Origin: Halichondria panicea
Lineage: Eukaryota; Porifera; Demospongiae; Suberitida; Halichondriidae
Reading direction: 5' to 3'
Assembly: GCF_963675165.1 (NCBI RefSeq)
Contig: NC_087383.1
Span: forward strand, 3,812,979-3,876,978
DNA length: 64,000 nucleotides
Every line of letters begins with the position of its first letter. The stretch's first letter is position 1. The notes below the pieces were generated by a model. It did no database searches. It was not told where the DNA came from and was given only the letters and a program-made list of their open reading frames with translations. Positions 52,601 to 64,000 of the stretch are shown in pieces. The translations under genes were made by a program, and so were the position numbers.

Positions 52601-55600
52601 TGACACTTTGCTCTCTAACTTTTTCCACCAGGCATGTCGTTCAAGTACTGGTATGGCGGGTTTTTGCGATCTTAGTTGTAAACACTCACAAAGTTCGCAA
52701 ATGCATAATTATTATTCACTCAGGTGATGTTCTTCTTGACTGAGAGTGACCGCTTTCGTCCTCCAAAGAAAAAACCAAAGTCAGTACAATGAGTACTATA
52801 GATATTCCATTGCGTTTGGCTTATAACTTCCATGCGAATTGTACATATACCGTTGACTAAACCTGAATTGTGCATGCAGAGTGATCAAGAGCAGATACAG
52901 CCTGGCTTGTCTTAAGTCCATGCCTCCAGAAGAATGCTACGAAAGAAAGGTGTGTTTTAGTGACTGTACCAAACATAATTATTTAGCTCGTCATTTGATT
53001 TGTATTACGTATTGAATGTTTACCTATATAAAGAATATACTTTTCAATGTATAATTACTTACAGCCAGCACCTGACTTTGAATTCAGGTGAATGGAAAGG
53101 AATTCTGTTCTTGCGTATACAATTGCTGTAGATTTAATAATTATGTACAGCCATGTACATGTACATGCACGGGTGCAGCGAGGTATATGCGGTAGTGTGT
53201 GTGTATGTCACTGTGTGTGTACTGCTACTAACAACTACTCAATGATAAATAATTAGTTGTAAGTAAGAGTTTCAATGGGCTTCTAGTAACGTTTCATTAG
53301 ATTTGCAAAATAATGCTTCGTTCTCAAGTTTGCTTGTTTATAGGCCATTGCAACGGAATCATATACCCGCGGGCGGTGCTTATTTTTTTATTGTTCTTTC
53401 ACTACATGTATATATACCTCAGATGATGAATGAGGAGTATGGAGAGGCGTTAATGCTGGCTCAGCAGTACGGACTTAATTGTGACCTTGTATATCTACGG
53501 CAGTGGAGATCATACCCTGTCTCCATAGCAACGATACAAGATTATCTCGTAAGCATTTTATTATGCTGTAATGTGTGTACAAAAGAACTTTTTAATTCAG
53601 CCATAAACTAATACCGTACCCTCGCAAAAATAAGCCTATCTTGAATATACGCCCATCCCCTCTTTTGCTTCAAGTTCTTGCACAAGAGTATTTTCACTCG
53701 ATTATAAGCCCACCCAGAATGAAGATTTTGAGCGTGCGCAGTAGCTAAATCCCACATTAATTTTAGTGAAGAAAGCAAGTTTTAGGTAGTAGCTAGTTAG
53801 ACTATACTCCTTGCTGGACCAAGATCAGACATATAACTTTTTCTGTGTTGATCTGTTTGCCCTTGAAGATGGGAACAACTAGTCCTACATGTATATCAGA
53901 GAAAGGGAACAATTAACAAATATGAGAATAAAGGCTCATTACCCAGGCCAATTTTGCAGGTTACCTTGGTTTTCTGAAACAAAGTACCTGATAGCTCTGT
54001 AAGAGTATGACCTACATGTACCATACATCAGGAAGTTCCTGCTGTTACATCTGACGCAACAAATAGAGTTAGGGTCCACTTAATTAGGAATAACATTATT
54101 GTTGTCAATGAAATGTTCATACTACTATCCGTATGAATAAGGAATGGTAAAGCCAAGTGTAAACCTCGATTTGAGGCCGCAGGTGGGCGTATATTTGAAT
54201 GAAAATTCGTCATTCGCGATTAAACGAATATTTACGGTATAGTATTGTTTTCATGTTCCATAATTATAAGTGTAGCATGCTGCATGTATTGTGGCCAGAT
54301 TTTTACGTCATTAGTTCATTGACAATCCATGCAGTCTAAGATAACCCAAAGGTCGGAGGTGCTGCAGGAGTGCATTAACAGAGTACCTGATGACTACGAG
54401 ACAACCAAGCAGCTGCTGCAGTACGGGCTGTCAAGAACATCATTCAAGTGAGTATAATAATGCCTCGTGCATAGACGGATAAAATTAATGATTTTCGCTG
54501 TTTCCCTGAGTATGAAATTATACATGCCCTCTCCCTCCTACGCCATTAGGGAAAACAGATTACGTACATGCATGTACATGTACATGTTAGTATTACATGG
54601 AAATAAACACAGTTTATTAGCATGTGCATGTGGGTGGGATGCAATAACTAATACGTGGACTGAAAACTTTAAACTTATCACTCAACTGTTCTGTCCTCAG
54701 TGTATGCACATGTATAATTATAATGACAAAATTAATTATGATTTTGAAGCTTTGATCTTTTAAGGATTCATGTAATGAAGATATAGTGCCTGTACAAGGC
54801 CGACAGGCATGATCTTAGTGTGAGAATTCATAAGTTAATGTGGTTTGTCCGATGGAATGGAGCCCGACTGTTTGGTCTCGTTAAATTAAAACTTAGCGTT
54901 CATCTACGTACATAATTAATTGTGGTTTTAATTGCATGCCTTCAAGATGTGCGAAAGTTAGCGTGCTAAAGTAGTGGTTAAACTGATAATGAATGGATCA
55001 TGTGATTTAATAATCGAATACACATGGTGTAAATATACTCTTTAAAAGGTCTACTTTAAAGAAATAGTGAAAGATTGAATTGTTGCAACGTGTTTTGCTC
55101 ATCACCAAGATGGCCTACCCTCAGTATTATCTCATGGCTAATGTGACTAAGGCACAGCTACATGAAAGTCCCTCGATGAAGAAATTTGAATGGGGGGTTG
55201 AAGGGAACCAAGACTTTGAATTCTGGTTGATGATTCTTCTGCTAGACATTGAGCATCAAAAAGAAGGTCATCAAAAAGGTGCATCCACTCTGGAAAACTT
55301 ATGTTTCAAGTCCTTGGCAGAAATTGAAAATCGAGAAAACTACACTAAATTACTGCCCAGTCTCTTGGAACGAAAAGCTGACACATTCTTCCTCTCTCAG
55401 CAACTTGTTGGAAAATGGGCCAGAGATCGCCTCATACTCACGGGAGACTGCTGTGAATATGGTCCATTCCCACCCAACGGAGACTGGGAGGAGGGTAACC
55501 TGTTCTCTTATGCTGCTGAAACATTCACTGATTCGCAAGTTCCCGAAAAATTCTATCCATCACAAACTTTGAAGAAGACATTTCAAGGAAAAGAGTTAAA

Positions 55601-58600
55601 AGTAGTGAACTTAGACAGGAAACAGTACCTGGATCCTAAATCGTTTGAAAGTAGAAGTATAATTGATTGCATTATGGCTGGAGAAAGTCACCAGGTGATG
55701 GTCGCTTTAGTAATAGCTTTACTTCAGTCCCATACTCGGGAATCGATGGGAAAATTTCCTCCCTCCCAGCGACCACTTGGTATTTGGGCAGGAGACAAAA
55801 TTGCAATCTGCACATCGCAACAAGTGGAGAAATTTCAGAGGTATAAAGATGTGAGCAAACTTTTCAAGGAGTAGTTACTTTATCACAATAACTTTTTATT
55901 GGAGTATTTACACACATATCCCTATATGCCACAATAATTATACCTGTAACAATTATATAAAATTAATGATGCGCACTTATGTGTGTATGCCATGCAGTCA
56001 ACACAAGAAACGTTAACCCTCTGCAGGCCATTCCACCTACATAGAATGGGAGCAATAATTTGTTCTCATACATACTGTAAATTGTTGGTGTACATCTATA
56101 GTGTACTGCATCATGTTTGTTGTATAGCATTCTCACCAAGGTGACAAAGTTTAGTTTCATGTCACAAAGCATACTACGCCATGTAGATACAATAATTTCC
56201 ATGGCTACTCTGAATATAATTATTCACCCCATTTTCACCAGCCTAGAGGGGTATATAGCCTCGTTCCCAGGCCGAGTTGTTTAAAGTTACGGTAAACAGT
56301 TTGCTCATAATAATGATTTTTGTGAAACTATAAGTGCCATGATAGAAGTTTGAAGCACATGATAAATATATTGGTGTATCAATCTGTATGACAAGTATCT
56401 ATCTTTAAAACATCTTCCAGTGAAAGCTCTGAGCGATCATCAAGTTTCTAGAAACAACACAAACTAGTATAGTCGTTTTAAACGGCCAAAAATACTTGTA
56501 AAGTCTATTTGCGTTGAGTTTGACCCCGGAAGTTATGTGGTCAATTATGGCTTCATTCATCTTTATGTGGTGGACATAATTATATGCCTGCATGGGACTT
56601 CTACATGGAAAATGCTAACTTTTAGCTGGTTGGAGCTTACCAGCTCTACAGCACATACCGTATAGCGCGAAATTTTCGCGGATTTCGTGGGTTAGCAATC
56701 CTACACGAAAATTGTTCTTTAATTAGAATTATCTGTTATAACGTGCAAATATTTAAAGGTGTGGCTTTCGGTAAGCAGTTATTCCGCGAACGTTGTGCAG
56801 CGAAATGCTTTTAGAGGCTAATCCACGAAATATAAGTGCCTCGAAAATTTCGCACTATACGGTAGATAGAAGCGCTTTTAACAAGGAATCCAATGGTGTA
56901 TGAAACTTGAATTTCAGTGAAGTATGACAAAGTTACGATAACTTTATGAAGGTCACTGACAGTAAATTTTGTGCGGATCGAGTCAGAGGAGAAACAGAAA
57001 AACAAAATTTGTAAAATCTCTGTAGCCAGATGGTGGTATGGTAGTTTGTATCTGGGCGTGGTTAGGAACCGGAAACCACGCACAGACAAACTACCATACC
57101 ACCATCTGGGTGCAGTAGACGTTGAGTTAAGAAGATGTACGGGTCAATTTAATAGAGGAACTAAATTACTGCGTGCTGAAGAAAATGTTGATGTCTACTT
57201 CTTCTCCTGGTAACTTGTTTGGAGGGTGGGCCAGAGATCGCCTCATCGTCACAGGAAAAAAGGGAAAAGTTCAGAAAAAGTCGATACGTAATTCACTAAA
57301 AAGTAGCTAAGAATGTGACAATAAGTTAATGTGCTTACTATAGCAATATACGTGGGGTAAAAAAATCGTTCATCTTGACCACAGGGATTTTCGTAAGTAA
57401 AATTTCGTTTAACTTCATTGCCTGCACTGCATTCATGCATTCCGGTAAACCTCGCTTCGGTTTTCGGGGGGGGGGGCGTTGTGGAGGTCAGCTTGCCTAC
57501 AAAATTACGTATAATTATAGCTGCAGTTGGGATACCATATATCAGGTTTTGAATGCGATTGTGAATGACACTGTGAATACAAGCCTGATGGCATTTTTAA
57601 CTATTGTGCAAATCATAGGAAATGCATGCGTACGCTCACTTTGATTTATGTGAACTCGTAATTCGCAATTGAAAGAACGTCGCATTCGAAACCCGATATA
57701 TGGTACGCACGTGGGCAGGAAATGGATTGTAATTTGCATCCCACATGTTGATGTTTTAATGATGTGAGCAATGTCTTTCAAGTGCATTAAATCTTTAACT
57801 TTATTGTCAGTTTGAGCTTTGAATTTATCATCGCATCCTATTTGCATACGTGCTTATACCCTCTGGTATGGTTGGTAGATTAATTATGCTCGAGATCATT
57901 ATTACCTATTCTTTTATGCTCAAGTTAACATTCTATTATTCTTTTCAAATCGCCTATTATTCCCACATTATTCCTCCAAAGCACAATAACATAGAGACCC
58001 CATGTCATTGCATAAGTAACATTAAACTATAATATTATTGATATGGCCAGATGACTCTATCTATTAACACGAATGCCAAGGAGACAATTATCCATCAGTA
58101 TACTTCTATCACGACCATCAGGCCTACAAGTTTATACTATGATTCGTACTGACTTGTACTTTCCAAAACCTGCCTATTATTCTCATAAACGTGCCTATTA
58201 TGCCAGCATAATTCTCACCAAAAGAATGTGCTTATATTATGCTCAAAATTATGCCAGCATATAATATCAATTACCCCTATGCCCTCTGGCGTATGTCAGT
58301 CAGCACATGCATGCTTTTTTGTCTGAATTTGAATGAAATCAATTTGCTATTTCATACGTTGTGCCTTACAAAATTAATCAAGCTTTATAGTCTCAGAAAG
58401 TTGGTGGCTTAACTGGATGCAGATTTGTATTATAGCCTCATTTCCAAGCCCAAGGAATGAGGCCTGGTGTCTATTGCGTGTGATAGTGCGCTATTGCAGA
58501 ATATGGGGAACTCCTTCTCTTTTCTATCTATGGTGAACAGTGCTTAGCTGTGTCTTATGAATTGGTTAATAAGGCTTGCACACTAGTCTGAAGCCAGAAA

Positions 58601-61600
58601 AGAGGTTTTCATCTACCTCTCCGATGATTGTATGGTTGATCGGGATGTCTGCTCGGTTTTGTACACTGTAAAAAATAAATTGTGCTGAGTGCGCAATACG
58701 CGACAAAAAACGTGTAATACACACGGCGGCCTAGTGTGCTCAGTACTCTCTACATTGTGCAGGCTATAATACCGCTATGGCAAGTCTTTGTACTTCCTAT
58801 GGTGCTGCTGTTGCGAATAAAATTCGAACATACGACCATTGTAGAGGTAGATAAAAGCCATTTCTGGCATTGGACTAGTGTGTCTTCTTGGCCAACACGC
58901 ATAAGCCATAGCTTCAATCATGGGTAAGTATTACAGAACATATTCCTATAGTAAACGGATTAGTTTACGGTGTAGTTTTACGTTTGTAGTACGATTACAG
59001 TGCCTTTAGTCTAGAGAGTAAATAAACACAATTTTGTTTCTATTGGTAAGAGATTGGAACATTTGCTGTTAGTTACCGTTGTGTGGGTAAAAGAATGATC
59101 TAAAACATATCTAAAAAGATTTCCATGCGCAACCAAAGGTTTGGTGGTTTATAGTGGACAATCGCTTAGCGATGGAAAAGACCAATCGCCGCGTCGGATA
59201 AGGTCTGGAACTCTGTGGCACAACATTCCTGAAAAGTTGTATGATTTCGTTTAGCTTACATAAATACACACACAAACACCCGATTACTACTCATTATCGG
59301 GTTTTTATGGTGCTTTTTGCTTACGACGTTATACAGGCTTGTAATCAATGAATTTCCTGCCGCGTGGGCAGTGACTGTACGTGACCAGTACCTACCGCAA
59401 CGTTGATGAAGCCATTTCTCTGATGTCAGTGAAACATCACTCCAAGATGGCCGCTCCACACACAGTATAGATAGAGAAAATAGCGCTTAGCTATCTATCC
59501 ATTGCCTCATTGAATTGCTTTCAGACTATAATGGTTGGGCTTATGCATGCAAAGTAAGTTGAAATAAATTATATCATCAATTTCCACCAACAAGTGAGAA
59601 AAAAATTTACTCTCTACCCAGATTCTTGGTATAGGTTGTGCATGGTGCGTATGTGCACTAACACCCATGCAATACTAATGGACATCAGAATTTTTCGAAC
59701 TAGCGTTTAAAATAAAAAAAACGGCCTGGGACCAAGCATGCAAGAGTGCATGAACCCAGAACCCAATTAACTGCCAAAGTATTAGAAGTGATAAGCATCA
59801 TGTGGTTAACACTCTCAGACCATGAGGAGTGGGCTCTAAAATCAAGACAATTATTTATAGGGTATCTACTGTTGTGCTCACCTTCAAGATAGCACGTGAT
59901 AATGGGACAGTATTACATCTTCGCTAATGTGACTAAGTCACAGGCTATGGATCCGTCCTGCTTCAGCAAGGCATGTTCAATAGTTGGCGCTGAAGACTTC
60001 CAATTCTGGTTGACGGTTCTTTTGTTAGACATCGAACATCAAGAAAATGAGCACACTCTGGAAAATATATGCCTTAAATCCTTGGCAGAAATTGAGAATC
60101 CAGAAGACTACACCAAGTTTCTGCCCAGTCATTTGGAAAGAAAGGTTGACATCTGCCTTCTCTCTCAGCAACTGTTTGGAAGGTGGGCCAGAGACCGCCT
60201 CATCACGGGTGACTACTCTGATTTCTCTCCATTCCCACCCAATGGAGACTGGAAGAAGGGTAATTTATATAATGATGTTGAGAAAACGTTCTCCTATTCC
60301 CATGCGCACAAACAATTCCACGAAAATAAAACAAAAATAGTTCAAACTCTAAAAAAGATAACTGAAGGAAAAGATCTAAAAATAGTAAACTTGGACAAGA
60401 AAGAGTATATGGCGTTTGGTGGGAGAAGCATAATTGATTGCATTGTGGCTGAGAAGAATACCGAATCAATGGGTAGTTTGATAATAACTTTGATTCACTC
60501 TACTGGCTCTGGAGGTGGAGATTTGTCGTCCCGTTGTGAATCACAAGGCATGTGGGCAGGATTGTAATTTGCACCCCACAACAAATTGACGACTTTCCAA
60601 GTTATACTACAAATGTGGCCATGCCCTATGATGAACCTTGGTGGGATTGATATTGCCTGTCGAACTGAACGAACATATTACAGTAACCATGTATTGTTTT
60701 AAGTTAAATTGTGTTACTGTTTTTGAATGATTTTGCGTGACATGTACGCACTATTTATGTATGATGTCATGGTAGTATGATTGCAGCAGTAAATTAATAT
60801 TGAAGTTGAAAAGTAACACTTGTTACTGATACATGTATGAATACCCACGATAGAATGTTGTGTCTTTTTGAAATCTGCGTGACGTTTGTAGCAAGTATAC
60901 ATAGAGCACTATTAATATAATTTCCTACTCGCAATCTGTTTAGCCGGAAACAAAAGTAGCGATTTACTCAACACTCTTGTCGACAAGAGCAGCGTTGGTC
61001 CTACCTATAGTGTGTAGTCCATCACAAAGGTATAAGGGCATCAAAGAAATTTGCCCTACCTCATTGGAAATTATGCAGACAAAAGTTTGAGGGTGGGCCA
61101 TAGATCGCCTTATCGTCACAGGATTACAAATCTGGAAGTATCGTCACGGGAAAAAAGGGAAAAGTTCAGAAAAAGTCGATACATAATTCAACCTAAAAAG
61201 TAGCTAAGAATAAAACTTGGTGATTGAAGTAATAATTATTAGCGAGTAATAATTATACGTAGGGCAGGGTTTCATCTAGTGGGGGGGGGGGCTGGGGTGA
61301 ACCTTCCCCCCCCAAAATGTTTGTATAATAATGACATCATCACATTAGTACTGTCTCTATATGATATGCAATATGTAACTAGATCTACTGTGATGCACTA
61401 GCATGTAATAGGGTGTGTGGTCAATAAATGTGTGAGTGGCCAAACATTTTGCGGCGTGCGTAACCTTCCCCCCAAACTTTTAATCCTAGATGAAACCCTG
61501 TAGAGTAAACAATTCGTTCACCTTGACCATTTTCGTAAGTATTAACTTCATTCCTGCACTGCATTCATGCATCCCGGTAAACCTCGCCTAGGTTTTCGGG

Positions 61601-64000
61601 GGGGGGGTTCGTGGAGGTCAGCTTGCCTACCAAATTACCCACTGTACAATATACGTAGCTGCAGTTGGGATACCGTATGTCAGGTTTTGAATGCGATTAA
61701 TTGTGAATGACACTGTGAATACAAGCCTGATTGCATTTCTAACTATTGCGCAAAGCATAGAAAATTGCACGCGTACGCTCACTTTGTGTTTCTTTGATTG
61801 CGATTTATGCTAGAACTCGTAATTCTCCATCGAAAGAACATCGCATTCGAAACACGATAATTATATGGTACGCAGGCAGGAAACGAGAATGAGTGTCTGA
61901 ACATCCATTGTGTCTGAATATAGACGCCTTGCTCTAACACCCATGCAGTATTAATTGACACCAGAATTTTTCCGACCTAGCGTTCAATATGAAAAAAACG
62001 ACCTGGGACCAATTAAGCATGCAGGAGTGCATGAACCAAGGTTAAGAAGGTTAATAAGAGTATTTCAGTCCTATTCGTTTAAGAGCCTGGAATTTTGATT
62101 GATTTTTCGGTATAGCTTCCGCAGTAAAATTGTGCTAAGCTGGTACACCCTTTTATTGAAGTAAAATCAATGCCAGCCTCTGCATTCTGCAGTACATGCG
62201 AAGTTGTGAAATATTGAATAAGAGCTACACCATCCCAGAGAGTGTTTGTCAACACTGTAGTTATAGTGGGCTTCAAAAAGCTATCAAAATTCCAGTGTTA
62301 GAAGTGATAAAGCATCATGTGGTGGTCAGACCATGAGGAGTGGGCTCTAAAATTAATTATAGTGAATCTACTGCTGTGCTCACCACCAACTCCTTCAAGA
62401 TAGCACATCATAATGGGACAGGGTTCCGTCGTGACTCTGTCACAGGTTTTGTCTTCGTGCTCGTTCAACTACGCATGTTCAATAGTCGGCAATGAAGAGT
62501 TTCAATTCTGGTTGATGATTTTTTTGTTAGACGTTGAGCATAAAGAAAATGTGCACACTCTGGAAAATATATGCGTCAAATCCTTGGCAGCAATTGAGAA
62601 TCGAGAAGACTACACCAAGTTTCTGCCCAGCCACTTAGAAAAAAAAGGTTGACATCTGCTTCCTCTCTCGGCAACTCTTTGGAAGGTGGGCCAGAGTCCG
62701 CCTCATCATCACGGGTGATTGCTCTGATTTCTTTCCATTCCCACCCAATGGAGACTGGAAGAAGGGTAGTTTGTGTGATGAATTTAAAAATACATTCTCG
62801 TATTCCCATGCGATGCAAGTGCACGAAAAATTCGACGAAAACAATACAAAAATATTCCAAACTCTAAAGAAGATAACTCAAGGGAAAGATCTAAAAATAG
62901 TTAACTTGGACAAGAAAGAGTATATGGATCCAAAAGCGTTTGATGGGAAAAGATTCATTGATTCCATTAATGCTGAAGAGAACCCAATGTTTAGGTACAT
63001 TATGGCTAAGAATCGCGAATCAATGTGTTATAGTTCGATAATAACTTTGATTCACTCCACTGGCCGTAGAAATGGAGATTTGCCGTTCCTTTTCGAATCA
63101 AAAGACGCGTGGGCAGGAGACAGGATTGTAATTTGCACCCCACAGCAAATTGACGACTTTCCGAGTTATACTGCAATTGCGTGGCCAATCCCTAGGGGCC
63201 CTAAGGTTATTATTACCTGATACATTGTCAAACTGAACGAATATATATGCATGTATGTAATTATTTTACTTTTTGCTGTTTTTGAATGACTTTGCATGAC
63301 ATGTACACACTACTTATGTATAATTATGTGTGATGTCAATTGCAGTAAAATTAATATTGAAGTTGGAATGTAACACTTGTTACTGCTGATATACATGCAT
63401 GAAACCCACGATTGAATGTTGTGTCGTTTTGAAATCCGGCTGCATGACGTTTGTAGTAGGTATATATAGCACTAATATAAACTCCTAAGATTTTCTCGCA
63501 ATCTGTTTAGGATCCTGCTTCCATTTGATGCAGGGAGCTGAAGCTAGATGGAGGAGATTATTACCTAGAACCCATTGACCTTAATGACTGTGATGAGGTC
63601 ACCCTGAGAGAGATGGAGGAAGATATTAGCGGCTGGGAGAAGTAAGAGCAATCTCAATTATTACTGTGTTAAGAATTTGTGCATGCATTAGTGGTAGAAT
63701 AATGATGGTTGCTGAAAAGCCATTTGTCAGTTGTTTACAAGATTAGCAAATTCAGCAAATCAATGCACAATGTCACTAAATTATGTACCTTCTCTGTTAA
63801 TGTTGCCATGCAGGTTGAACCACGAGCAGATCTCCATTTGCCAGTACAGGCACTTGCTGCAGATGTACTTGGATAGGTTGGCCACATATGAGGTACGTAT
63901 ATACGGTCTGTCACGAGTTTTTAACTCAATTATCGTCTTTTCCAGGTCTCCCTGGGTGGTCCACGAGCAGCTGATGAGAAGTTTAGGTCGAGTGTGTATG
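43695..64000 (+). CDS. NBAS: NBAS (neuroblastoma-amplified sequence) homologue, 5' part, runs off the right edge
   Basis: Exons: 43695-43787, 44065-44116, 44278-44320, 44620-44703, 44801-44848, 44916-44959, 45110-45185, 45478-45624, 45710-45766, 46071-46195, 46485-46576, 46809-46871, 47097-47225, 50960-50987 (uncertain), 51036-51076, 51271-51405, 52278-52418, 52724-52779, 52880-52949, 53423-53548, 54335-54447, 63534-63641, 63814-63892 and 63946 on. About 668 codons, against ~2370 in human NBAS. Matches to the vertebrate protein are collinear: 'EKILYDL..CEWP', '[14 protein letters not shown]', '[17 protein letters not shown]', '[11 protein letters not shown]', 'EVSWWSDD', '[15 protein letters not shown]', '[16 protein letters not shown]', 'DLVYLRQWR', '[13 protein letters not shown]'. 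The N-terminal half is a WD40-like propeller and the Sec39-type domain begins near the edge. NBAS acts in Golgi-to-ER SNARE tethering and nonsense-mediated decay. Two introns host other genes. Confidence 0.92.
44362..44581. repeat. TACCGTAT-terminal MITE in NBAS intron 3
   Basis: TACCGTATTACTAGAATATT with TTGC at the left is inverted at the right as GCAA(A)ACATTCTAGTAATACGGTA. It is 220 bases long and absent from the equivalent intron of the copy 1 NBAS fragment (about 15540-15560). Confidence 0.8.
45142..45306. repeat. NBAS: 55-base tandem repeat of the end of NBAS exon 7 and its splice donor
   Basis: The block starting CTAGCGTGGGACAAGGAGGG and running through GGGCCTCAG|GTATGT is repeated with a period of 55 bases (45142, 45197, 45252), each copy ending with GTATGT. 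The first is the coding exon end. The second and third lie in the intron and differ by a few bases. Confidence 0.85.
45838..45985. repeat. MITE in NBAS intron 9 (TAGTGGGTAATTTTCGTGGG)
   Basis: TATAGTGGGTAATTTTCGTG at the left is inverted at the right as CACAAAAATTACCCGCTGTA. The interior has CCGGAACGTATGAATGCAGTGCAGGCAATG, related to pieces at 57420 and 61555. It belongs to the ACCGTATA/GGGTAATTTT family seen at 569 and 56656. Confidence 0.65.
47361..47536. repeat. Foldback element in NBAS intron 13
   Basis: AATAGAGAGAGAGAGTATCG, AACGTAGGCA and ATGTATGCGGAGAG at the left pair with CTCTCCGCATACATCTGATG, TGCCTACGTTCGAAACTCTC and TCTCTATTATT at the right. It is about 176 bases and lies just after exon 13. 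Confidence 0.75.
47540..48400. other. Non-coding part of NBAS intron 13 downstream of cyclin B
   Basis: No gene was recognised. The 3' end of the antisense cyclin B gene is at 48410; the bases just left of it (CAATAAAAGTAGTG plus strand near 48358) do not show a clear minus-strand polyadenylation signal. Confidence 0.4.
48410..50744 (-). CDS. CCNB: Cyclin B, complete, seven exons, antisense within an NBAS intron
   Basis: Exons 50589-50744, 50249-50455, 49826-50020, 49328-49489, 48939-49175, 48734-48874 and 48410-48604 join in frame to 430 codons, the usual size for B cyclins. Residues 31-39 (RQALGNMAN) are a destruction box R-x-x-L-x-x-x-x-N for APC/C. The cyclin box starts at '[13 protein letters not shown]', followed by '[16 protein letters not shown]', '[16 protein letters not shown]', '[17 protein letters not shown]', '[13 protein letters not shown]', '[10 protein letters not shown]', '[10 protein letters not shown]' and 'PSQIAAAS'. 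The protein activates CDK1 for mitotic entry. Start 50744 was chosen because it places the D-box in the usual N-terminal position. The whole gene lies between NBAS exons at 47225 and 50960 in opposite orientation. Subtype (B1/B2 or B3) is not settled from the sequence. Confidence 0.93.
49501..49530. repeat. TG microsatellite beside a cyclin B acceptor site
   Basis: About ten TG units followed by CGTGCGTG lie directly upstream (on the minus strand) of the exon 4 acceptor. On the transcript they read as a CA-type run just before the splice site. Confidence 0.9.
50061..50220. repeat. 78-base tandem duplication in cyclin B intron 2
   Basis: The block from GGCTACCAGGAGTCGATCTA to CTAAATTGCA occurs at 50061 and again at 50139, with no difference seen. 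Confidence 0.9.
51563..52191. mobile_element. 629-base element with AGAGAAGAGGGCATGCAACT ends in an NBAS intron
   Basis: TATAGCCAAGGGTGTATACA then GAGAAGAGGGCATGCAACT at the left is matched inversely by AGTTGCATGCCCTCTTCTC then TGTATATGCCCTTGGTATAG at the right. A second inverted pair, CATCCGACTTCGTAT / ATACGAAGTCGGATG, lies further in. It contains a 65-codon frame (51775-51972) rich in lysine and serine with no recognised family, probably not a gene. Confidence 0.75.
53611..54243. repeat. Probable DNA element in an NBAS intron (ATACCGTA ends)
   Basis: ATACCGTACCCTCGCAAAAA ... GAATATACGCCCATCCCCTC at the left resembles, on the other strand, the right end TACCGTAAATATTCG ... CAAATATACGCCCACCTGCG. 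The match is partial. Another 'GGTGGGCGTA' piece is at about 12165 and 24745. Confidence 0.4.
55110..55874 (+). CDS. Uncharacterised two-domain 'NLDKKEY/WAGDRI' protein, intact copy 1, inside an NBAS intron
   Basis: It has a single exon of 254 codons from the ATG at 55110, chosen because [14 protein letters not shown] aligns with [12 protein letters not shown] of copy 2; an upstream in-frame ATG-like start at 55080 is not shared. The protein has two similar halves. Residues 1-135 hold '[11 protein letters not shown]', '[15 protein letters not shown]' and '[23 protein letters not shown]'. Residues 165-254 hold '[16 protein letters not shown]', '[10 protein letters not shown]' and '[16 protein letters not shown]'. 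Single-domain proteins of the type [16 protein letters not shown]...[10 protein letters not shown] are found in bacteria and fungi as uncharacterised families (from memory). No catalytic motif or signal peptide. Same strand as the host gene. Most diverged of the three copies. Confidence 0.75.
   Translation: MAYPQYYLMANVTKAQLHESPSMKKFEWGVEGNQDFEFWLMILLLDIEHQKEGHQKGASTLENLCFKSLAEIENRENYTKLLPSLLERKADTFFLSQQLVGKWARDRLILTGDCCEYGPFPPNGDWEEGNLFSYAAETFTDSQVPEKFYPSQTLKKTFQGKELKVVNLDRKQYLDPKSFESRSIIDCIMAGESHQVMVALVIALLQSHTRESMGKFPPSQRPLGIWAGDKIAICTSQQVEKFQRYKDVSKLFKE
56256..56276. repeat. Solo TAGCCTCG terminal repeat
   Basis: TAGCCTCGTTCCCAGGCCGA sits 0.4 kb after copy 1 of the two-domain gene. A partner arm was not identified. 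Confidence 0.5.
56656..56864. repeat. TACCGTATAGCGCGAAATTT MITE
   Basis: TACCGTATAGCGCGAAATTT with TCG at the left is inverted at the right as CGAAAATTTCGCACTATACGGTA; 209 bases. The interior has TCGTGGGTTAGCAATCC and GTGGCTTTCGGTAAGCAG, similar to the 45838 element. Confidence 0.85.
57027..57109. repeat. Hairpin (CAGATGGTGGTATGGTAGTT)
   Basis: CAGATGGTGGTATGGTAGTT with TGT at the left pairs with ACAAACTACCATACCACCATCTG at the right; the loop side contains GGGCGTGGTTAGGAACCGGAAACCACGC. Part of it (TGTATCTGGGCGTGGTT) is also in the arms of the element at 13656. Confidence 0.75.
57195..57310 (+). pseudogene. Remnant of the two-domain family (fragment 1)
   Basis: TTTGGAGGGTGGGCCAGAGATCGCCTCATCGTCACAGG corresponds to the codons [13 protein letters not shown] at the end of the first domain. 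Upstream it retains AAATTACTG..GAAGAAAATGTTGAT..CTACTTCTTCTC-like decayed sequence (cf. ERK.D.CLLSQQL). It then changes to unrelated sequence shared with 61140-61210. No open frame. Confidence 0.6.
57363..57500. repeat. Dispersed repeat with poly-G tract, pair with 61505-61630
   Basis: CCTTGACCA..GATTTTCGTAAGTA...CTGCACTGCATTCATGCAT, CCCGGTAAACCTCGC, a run of ten G and GTGGAGGTCAGCTTGCCTAC occur in both places in the same order. They resemble decayed copies of the MITE at 45838-45985. The same order of neighbours (family remnant, then this repeat) in both places shows they were copied together. Confidence 0.6.
58433..59737. mobile_element. Deletion derivative of the composite TAGCCTCG element
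   Basis: The left end TAGCCTCATTTCCAAGCC is followed by GGTGTCTATTGCGTGTGATAGTGCGC, like 38874-38945. An inner part (CACACTAGTCTGAAGCCA, CATCTACCTCT, TTGTATGGTC, GGATGTCT) matches 39047-39130. The right end (CATGCAATACTAATGGACAT ... CGGCCTGGGACCAAG) is a degraded inverted end. No recombinase codons remain. Confidence 0.5.
59765..59901 (+). promoter_or_regulatory. Shared upstream block of two-domain gene copies 2 and 3
   Basis: GAAGTGATAA(A)GCATCATGTGG, CAGACCATGAGGAGTGGGCT, CTAAAAT and CTTCAAGATAGCAC precede both copy 2 and copy 3 (62290-62412). Gene 1 keeps only a weak trace (GCTCATCACCAAGATGG). Could be promoter and 5' leader; equally it is just part of the recent tandem duplication. Confidence 0.35.
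59902..60567 (+). CDS. Two-domain 'NLDKKEY/WAGDRI' protein, copy 2, C-terminus truncated by a 7-bp deletion
   Basis: It reads from [14 protein letters not shown] at 59902 to a stop at 60565-60567 (221 residues). The first domain is complete ('[15 protein letters not shown]', '[18 protein letters not shown]', '[12 protein letters not shown]'). The second has '[14 protein letters not shown]' and '[10 protein letters not shown]', but ends 'GMWAGL'. Copy 3 has GGGCAGGAGACAGGATTG where this copy has GGGCAGGATTG: seven bases lost between CAGGA repeats, so the frame meets TAA before the D-R-I-V-I part. The sequence after the stop still matches the normal 3' codons (CAACAAATTGACGACTTTCC). It may be a pseudogene or a shortened protein. 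Confidence 0.65.
   Translation: MGQYYIFANVTKSQAMDPSCFSKACSIVGAEDFQFWLTVLLLDIEHQENEHTLENICLKSLAEIENPEDYTKFLPSHLERKVDICLLSQQLFGRWARDRLITGDYSDFSPFPPNGDWKKGNLYNDVEKTFSYSHAHKQFHENKTKIVQTLKKITEGKDLKIVNLDKKEYMAFGGRSIIDCIVAEKNTESMGSLIITLIHSTGSGGGDLSSRCESQGMWAGL
60570..60960. other. 3' flank of copy 2, duplicated downstream of copy 3
   Basis: GAATGATTTTGCGTGACATG, AACACTTGTTACTG and the final GCAATCTGTTTAG recur at 63240-63510, where they lead directly into the next NBAS exon. The tandem unit therefore contains the last part of the host intron. No gene here. Confidence 0.6.
61085..61210 (+). pseudogene. Remnant of the two-domain family (fragment 2)
   Basis: GAGGGTGGGCCATAGATCGCCTTATCGTCACAGG corresponds to GRWA-x-DRLIVTG with a stop (TAG) replacing the arginine-region codon. 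The following ACGGGAAAAAAGGGAAAAGTTCAGAAAAAGTC is the same as after fragment 1 (57250-57290). No reading frame. Confidence 0.6.
61505..61640. repeat. Second member of the 57363 repeat pair
   Basis: It has the same blocks as 57363-57500 (CTTGACCATTTTCGTAAGTA, CTGCACTGCATTCATGCAT, poly-G, GTGGAGGTCAGCTTGCCTAC). The next ~150 bases also match (CAGTTGGGATACCGTATGTC, ATGCGATTAATTGTGAATGA). Confidence 0.6.
62413..63220 (+). pseudogene. Two-domain 'NLDKKEY/WAGDRI' gene, copy 3, frameshifted in an A8 run
   Basis: The N-terminal frame 62413-62652 ([11 protein letters not shown]..., '[15 protein letters not shown]') stops just after a run of eight A at 62639-62646, where copy 2 has AAAGAAAGG and one base fewer. 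The remaining codons continue in another frame through 'GRWARVRL', '[12 protein letters not shown]' and 62771-63220 with '[17 protein letters not shown]', '[10 protein letters not shown]', '[19 protein letters not shown]' and a C-terminus ...GPKVIIT. The start differs from copies 1 and 2: the 'YYxxANVTK' motif is lost by a small internal deletion. This copy preserves the best second domain. A sequencing error in the A run is possible. Confidence 0.65.
63221..63533. other. End of the large NBAS intron
   Basis: No gene; it matches the 3' flank of copy 2 (60570-60960) and ends with the acceptor TTTGATGCAG at 63533. Confidence 0.6.

Follow-up and report, generated by a model that had tools for sequence, protein, structure and literature searches.

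A candidate gene of a phage- and bacterial-type domain family and its decaying copies inside an NBAS intron of a sponge

The window, a 64,000-nucleotide stretch of contig NC_087383.1 of the sponge Halichondria panicea, harbors one intact intronless open reading frame within an intron of an NBAS-like gene, together with two broken copies of it and two remnants; every one of them has the orientation of the host gene. On the basis of sequence comparisons, we consider the intact frame, copy 1, to be probably a living nuclear gene of a phage- and bacterial-type domain family (probability about 0.6). An animal gene tied to this large nameless family of phage proteins gives the family one more context and is an argument for its curation. 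The preliminary description of this DNA had proposed a gene family expanding inside the intron, which overstates what is one intact gene accompanied by decaying copies. Its count of three copies and two remnants, their strand and their lack of introns were correct, with copy 1 alone intact.

The host intron and the layout of the copies

The intron extends from 54448 to 63533 on the forward strand (9,086 bases). As read from the sequence, it has GT...AG ends and its flanking exons splice together in frame, ...TTC AA joining G GAG CTG.... An upstream exon at 47097-47225 matches the Pfam Nbas_N model with an E-value of 1.1e-9, and we take the protein around the intron to be NBAS; the earlier reading of a single NBAS intron of about 9.1 kb thus holds. 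Searches of the whole genome (a 131.5-Mb assembly in 39 contigs) with the Pfam Sec39 model and with the phrog_3156 model gave zero matches, and since the positive controls were likewise silent, no inference is drawn from either result.

Copy 1 (55110-55874, forward strand, as are all features below) is an intact frame of 254 amino acids encoding two related domains, half A and half B. Remnant 1 (57158-57257, frame 3, with its core at 57216-57257 and its extent judged by eye) is a decayed end of half A. Copy 2 (59902-60567) is open for 221 amino acids, until seven bases missing at its last WAGDR motif put it out of frame and lead to a stop, with homology continuing to about 60657. Remnant 2 (61086-61122) is the counterpart of remnant 1 in a second duplicated unit, and copy 3 (62413-63220) is broken, with a degraded start, a frame break near 62645 and an open half B.

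Remnant 1 and copy 2 lie in duplicated unit 1 (57215-60945), and remnant 2 and copy 3 in duplicated unit 2 (61084-63511). About 1.9 kb of unit 1 (57722 to 59654) is absent from unit 2. The same end junction, CTCGCAATCTGTTTAG, closes both units, and since unit 2 stops 22 bases before the next exon, the copying took place in situ, which bears out the tandem copying proposed earlier; the two units also have their flanks in common. Judged from these alignments, the two remnants are a single remnant duplicated along with copies 2 and 3. The coding DNA of copies 2 and 3 is 84.2% identical, within the range of the remnant and flank pieces of the two units (92.4, 87.6, 75.1 and 83.2%), so the coding part shows no special preservation. 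The coding sequences of copies 1 and 2 share 68.7% identity, and the 300-base flanks on either side of them, at 44.0% and 48.1%, are at the random level defined by 30 random pairs (median 45.0%, maximum 51.6%). Some 20 bases immediately 5' of the two starts look similar by eye.

Several repeats were also observed in the intron. The segment at 56278-56500, just 3' of copy 1, is a dispersed repeat with at least 39 further genomic matches at 81-90% identity (scoring covered 40 of 154 candidates), and it is possibly longer because the query ended there. By eye, near-complementary ends ACCGTATAGCGCGAAATTTTCG ... CGAAAATTTCGCACTATACGGT at 56657-56865 resemble those of a short inverted-repeat element, and 57027-57110 holds a 24-base inverted repeat, CCAGATGGTGGTATGGTAGTTTGT and its complement, with about 40 bases between. 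An insertion in unit 2 at 61266-61502 has no counterpart in unit 1 and appears, again by eye, MITE-like, with inverted ends GGGTTTCATCTAG / CTAGATGAAACCC.

Two halves of one domain family

In copy 1, half A (55110-55463) reads ANVTK... and half B (55572-55871) reads ...WAGDKIAIC. When half A is aligned with the family, some 45 of its residues form an additional stretch that was not seen in the prokaryotic domain. The motifs run N-V-T-K...LLLDIEH...WARDR in half A and N-L-D-K-K...LIHS...WAGDRI in half B.

The halves were compared with profiles of single-domain relatives. A 41-row profile comprised 10 bacterial and 31 viral proteins; 12 of its rows had been collected with queries that included window rows, and the test was therefore repeated with the 29 others and with an 11-row profile, A4, built entirely from a viral-contig scan with a consensus query. 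The 29-row viral profile matched half B of copies 1, 2 and 3 with E-values of 6e-9, 5.1e-8 and 2.4e-7, respectively, and half A of copies 2 and 1 with 4.3e-7 and 1.5e-4; among 2,000 shuffled halves the lowest E-value was 0.4. The pieces of half A in copy 3 were not significant, one giving an E-value of 0.1 and the other no listed match. The 41-row and A4 profiles agreed with the 29-row result. In single comparisons with hhalign, to which the E-values refer, half B matched the single-domain proteins at 3.2e-18 and half A at 8.3e-11 over just 20 columns. By these profiles both halves of the window protein belong to the same domain family. Compared directly, half A and half B gave an hhalign probability of 4.4% over 16 columns, and the internal duplication is visible only through the outside family. 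The two similar halves proposed from their motifs are thus upheld, for copies 1 and 2, as members of a shared family, while the direct resemblance between them is weak.

Two further motifs, a GDY and a glycine-rich GGD loop, are distributed between the halves. In copy 2, half A contains GDY and half B contains GGGD. This pattern is degenerate in copies 1 and 3, and half B of copy 1 has neither the GGD loop nor GDY, its glycine loop having been lost. Measured against the single-domain pattern, in which loop and GDY occur in the same domain, the halves of copy 2 carry one each.

The structure model of a single-domain protein was of high confidence (mean pLDDT 88.9, pTM 0.82), and that of copy 1 had a mean pLDDT of 65.8, half B being better than the low-confidence half A. 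Half B of copy 1 is predicted to run strand, strand, helix, helix, helix, strand, the same succession as in the single-domain model. Foldseek searches of the PDB with the single-domain and copy 1 models gave no match below an E-value of 7, and the best viral fold match was to an uncharacterised 109-aa phage protein (probability 0.96, E-value 0.091, TM 0.60 on the target).

Relatives in phages, viral contigs and bacteria, and their gene neighborhoods

Searches with the window proteins against Pfam, NCBIfam and PHROG gave no convincing family match, including no match to phrog_3156 or phrog_35050. Copy 1 likewise had no convincing match in PADLOC and 0 matches to solved structures by phmmer. Half B of copy 3 gave chance-level rows only by tblastn against plasmids and phages, and a scan of viral contigs with copy 2 identified no relative. 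A consensus query, in turn, identified 46 viral-contig relatives, with identities reaching 83%, in single-domain and two-domain forms. All five two-domain viral proteins scanned matched phrog_3156 (best E-value 9.8e-33) and phrog_35050, both annotated as function unknown; single-domain viral proteins matched these two weakly or partially, and the single-domain viral and bacterial proteins scanned had no convincing Pfam or NCBIfam match. The family is uncharacterised, as first described. Two motif strings of the family, searched as letter strings, did not occur in the literature searched.

In bacterial and viral searches that scored the best candidates only, profile scans of viral contigs identified 259 relatives with a two-domain profile and 83 with a single-domain profile, of which 80 each were kept. 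With a two-domain query, matches were obtained in 187 phage records; 186 carry the names of Mycobacterium or Mycolicibacterium phages, and gp66 of Mycobacterium phage Alice is a relative by tblastn. The two-domain architecture had been presented as a version of a motif known only from single-domain proteins, a claim that these numbers contradict. A single-domain viral query (L027) had no match by tblastn in phage and plasmid records, so with this query the single-domain form of viral contigs was not found in named phage records. In bacteria the single-domain form is sparse, with 10 loci in a one-pattern scan, 6 of 294 genomes of one phylum (the central genome included; four of the matches are weak, with E-values of 8e-8 to 6e-4) and 1 of 398 genomes of another, which is the central genome itself.

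From 160 distinct family proteins, 41 were used as single-domain and 54 of 67 as two-domain (13 were unsplittable); the other 52 fitted neither strict pattern, many being plainly family members with a variant loop. A set of at least 100 amino acids retained 155 proteins (75 single-domain, 80 two-domain), reduced to 63 and 53 by removal of near copies, with a few fragments remaining. Three single-domain viral proteins (L012, L017 and L020) carry a C-terminal C-x-C...C-x-H stretch resembling a SWIM zinc finger; the Pfam SWIM model matched L012 below its cut-off (E-value 0.024), and the other two were judged by eye. In a 409-aa protein (L220:3001-4227), the family domain forms the N-terminal part; a long insertion precedes its W-x-G-D-R end, and a long unassigned tail follows.

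The gene neighborhoods offer leads to function. The scans covered 80 of 185 neighbors of two-domain genes and 69 of 213 neighbors of single-domain genes, the longer ones being picked by eye from the first 140. The two-domain neighbors matched 107 PHROG families. Among the 25 families listed, 9 are nameless and the other 16 all have a role in DNA metabolism, including DnaB-like helicase, primase/helicase, helicases, ParB-like, ribonucleotide reductase, UvsX and HNH proteins, each family occurring in at most 4 of the 80 proteins. Single-domain neighbors had no common theme, and two Mycobacterium phage neighborhoods consisted nearly throughout of hypothetical proteins.

At four of seven non-redundant bacterial loci, the single-domain gene is flanked by a DUF3150-like gene on one side and a DUF2201 metallopeptidase-VWA gene on the other, and in two of these four a MoxR-like AAA gene precedes the set. 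The arrangement was assigned by Pfam at L053 and L058, and by profile at L051 and L055, where the AAA end was not covered; the DUF3150 match lies below Pfam's cut-off. The AAA gene of L053 also has an intein/Hint match. Because the neighbor models were built from the bacterial loci themselves, only viral cases are independent, and here AAA, DUF3150-like and DUF2201 genes were found together at 1 of 56 single-domain loci (L031, in a different gene order), with a weak AAA match only at another (L197), and at 0 of 53 two-domain loci. DUF2201_N was not found in the sponge genome by a search whose control matched in 2 of 14.

Although it comprises few loci, this operon, which combines a MoxR AAA ATPase with a VWA-metallopeptidase, offers an initial lead to what the domain does. 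Kaur et al. 2020 (PMC7159879) discuss how MoxR and vWA proteins are coupled in complex assembly and in conflict systems, and the NLDKKEY/WAGDRI domain goes unmentioned in the parts of that discussion consulted; in the literature passages searched, DUF2201 appears as a list entry. Judging from nothing beyond predicted secondary structure and gene context, copy 1 may be a small, soluble binding or adaptor module. The ancestral module may have worked with a phage replication apparatus or an AAA-VWA machine, an altered form being kept in the animal. If the ancestral activity depended on the conserved glycine loop, copy 1, in which the loop is missing, has probably lost that activity, and binding through a rebuilt surface would probably be what was kept.

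Origin of the gene and comparison with known systems

A fuller account, which we put forward tentatively, is that the animal acquired a bacteriophage-type gene, keeps it under selection in the NBAS intron and has remodelled it through the extra stretch of half A and the loss of the glycine loop, the dead tandem copies recording this history. On the main reading, the ancestor would have entered horizontally from a phage or bacterium (alternatively, it has a eukaryotic past) and would have been duplicated in place at least twice, copy 1 alone being kept. Such a transfer would not be unprecedented, as an earlier report on a sponge genome lists, in the part consulted, 227 putative transferred genes of prokaryotic type, 29% of them of unknown function (PMC4784904). 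If copy 1 is expressed, it would be a testable case of a phage-type gene domesticated in an animal by insertion into an intron.

Whether the phage likeness extends to the two-domain form itself is evenly balanced, since that form may equally have arisen here independently from a single-domain gene, in parallel with the phage proteins. The distribution of motifs argues against an independent origin. In two-domain viral proteins, GDY is present in every N half (53 of 53), where the GGD loop is rare (4 of 53). Their C halves usually carry the loop (51 of 53) and never a GDY following it (0 of 53), the two that lack a loop match being counted as no. A looser pattern, which left 2 of the 53 two-domain rows unparsed, found GDY after the loop in 2 of 51 C halves. 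Single-domain proteins (56 viral, 7 bacterial) carry the loop in 55 of 63 cases and GDY in 59 of 63. Copy 2 splits the motifs between its halves just as the two-domain phage proteins do. Also against independent origin, the hhalign match of the full window protein to the two-domain viral proteins covers 110 columns and runs through the linker into half B, with an E-value for this single comparison of 1.1e-9.

Other comparisons favor two separate duplications. Profiles of the phage halves fit the window halves poorly: the N-half profile matched half A of copy 2 at an E-value of 0.045 and of copy 1 at 7.1 (best shuffle 0.092), and the C-half profile matched half B of copies 2, 1 and 3 at 0.0012, 0.0023 and 0.093 (best shuffle 0.67). 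When relatives were ranked against a profile of the window proteins, all 25 best rows listed were single-domain proteins, several relatives matching more than one stretch of it (for L052, 47.6 bits in total and 34.0 in the best stretch); this ranking took in one of four loci (L250) from the search of 294 genomes. A domain tree of 94 columns, built from every second row (32 single-domain, 25 two-domain), did not join halves A and B to the main phage N and C groups, the exception being one very long C row that groups with half B. Its branches are long and poorly resolved.

The gene may instead belong to an old eukaryotic or early animal family that has been lost or is unsampled elsewhere. On this reading, which is possible though we would not favor it, the gene would have inherited its lack of introns or reached NBAS by retroposition, and no recent transfer from phage or bacteria would be involved. 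In its favor, the identity of the window proteins to their viral and bacterial relatives is low, about 25-40%, and the halves form long separate branches in the domain tree. Against it stands the confinement of the family to the intron. A protein search of the whole genome with copy 1 matched the intron copies only, and one with the single-domain viral protein L027 matched three half-B stretches only (E-values of 9.0e-6 for copy 1, 0.0049 and 0.0070 for the others). These searches, run exon by exon and so with possible gaps, identified neither an intron-bearing parent gene nor any further member of the family, intronless or not. On reading the intron by eye, no retrocopy mark, such as a poly-A tail or target-site repeat, was noticed. 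Between the two origins first suggested, retrocopy is rejected as the favored one because these protein searches found no parent gene, and horizontal acquisition is compatible with the viral and bacterial relatives and the lack of any other member in the genome.

It is also conceivable, though unlikely, that all copies are dead and copy 1 is simply a less decayed pseudogene. Copies 2 and 3 are broken and diverge nearly neutrally, their coding identity lying within that of the other unit pieces, and copy 1 has lost the conserved glycine loop. Against this, the 254-codon frame of copy 1 is open despite a synonymous divergence of 0.86 from copy 2. The dN/dS ratio between copies 1 and 2 is 0.37 (bootstrap 0.24-0.56; 0 of 500 bootstraps at or above 1), which points to purifying selection, a constraint that could predate the decay of the copies. 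The corresponding values are 0.50 (0.33-0.71) for copies 1 and 3 and 0.73 (0.44-1.21; 58 of 500 at or above 1) for copies 2 and 3. We read this pattern as old constraint, with which continued selection on copy 1 is compatible, and as relaxed evolution of the two broken copies. Contamination of the assembly by a phage or symbiont, which the prokaryotic and viral nature of the relatives might suggest, is rejected as highly improbable, as the copies lie between NBAS exons in units duplicated in place up to 22 bases before the next exon and a dispersed genomic repeat adjoins copy 1.

Our preferred reading, a living gene of a phage- and bacterial-type family, can be set beside three known systems. 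The bacterial operon of MoxR-AAA, DUF3150-like and DUF2201 genes contains one gene from the same domain family as the window gene, although no such partner was noticed near the latter. Each half of the window protein corresponds to one domain of the single-domain family, of which it has two per chain; both loop motifs are usual in the single-domain 'MGQYY-IVNLDK-EY...GNGRGGGD...' proteins, whereas the halves of copy 2 have one each. The proteins of phrog_3156 and phrog_35050 share with the window protein the two-domain form and, we consider, a W-A-x-D near each end, and the phrog_3156 type has GDY in its first half and the GGD loop in its second, both of which copy 2 shows. Unlike these proteins, the window gene is nuclear and nested in an intron, has about 45 additional residues in half A and scores higher with single-domain proteins.
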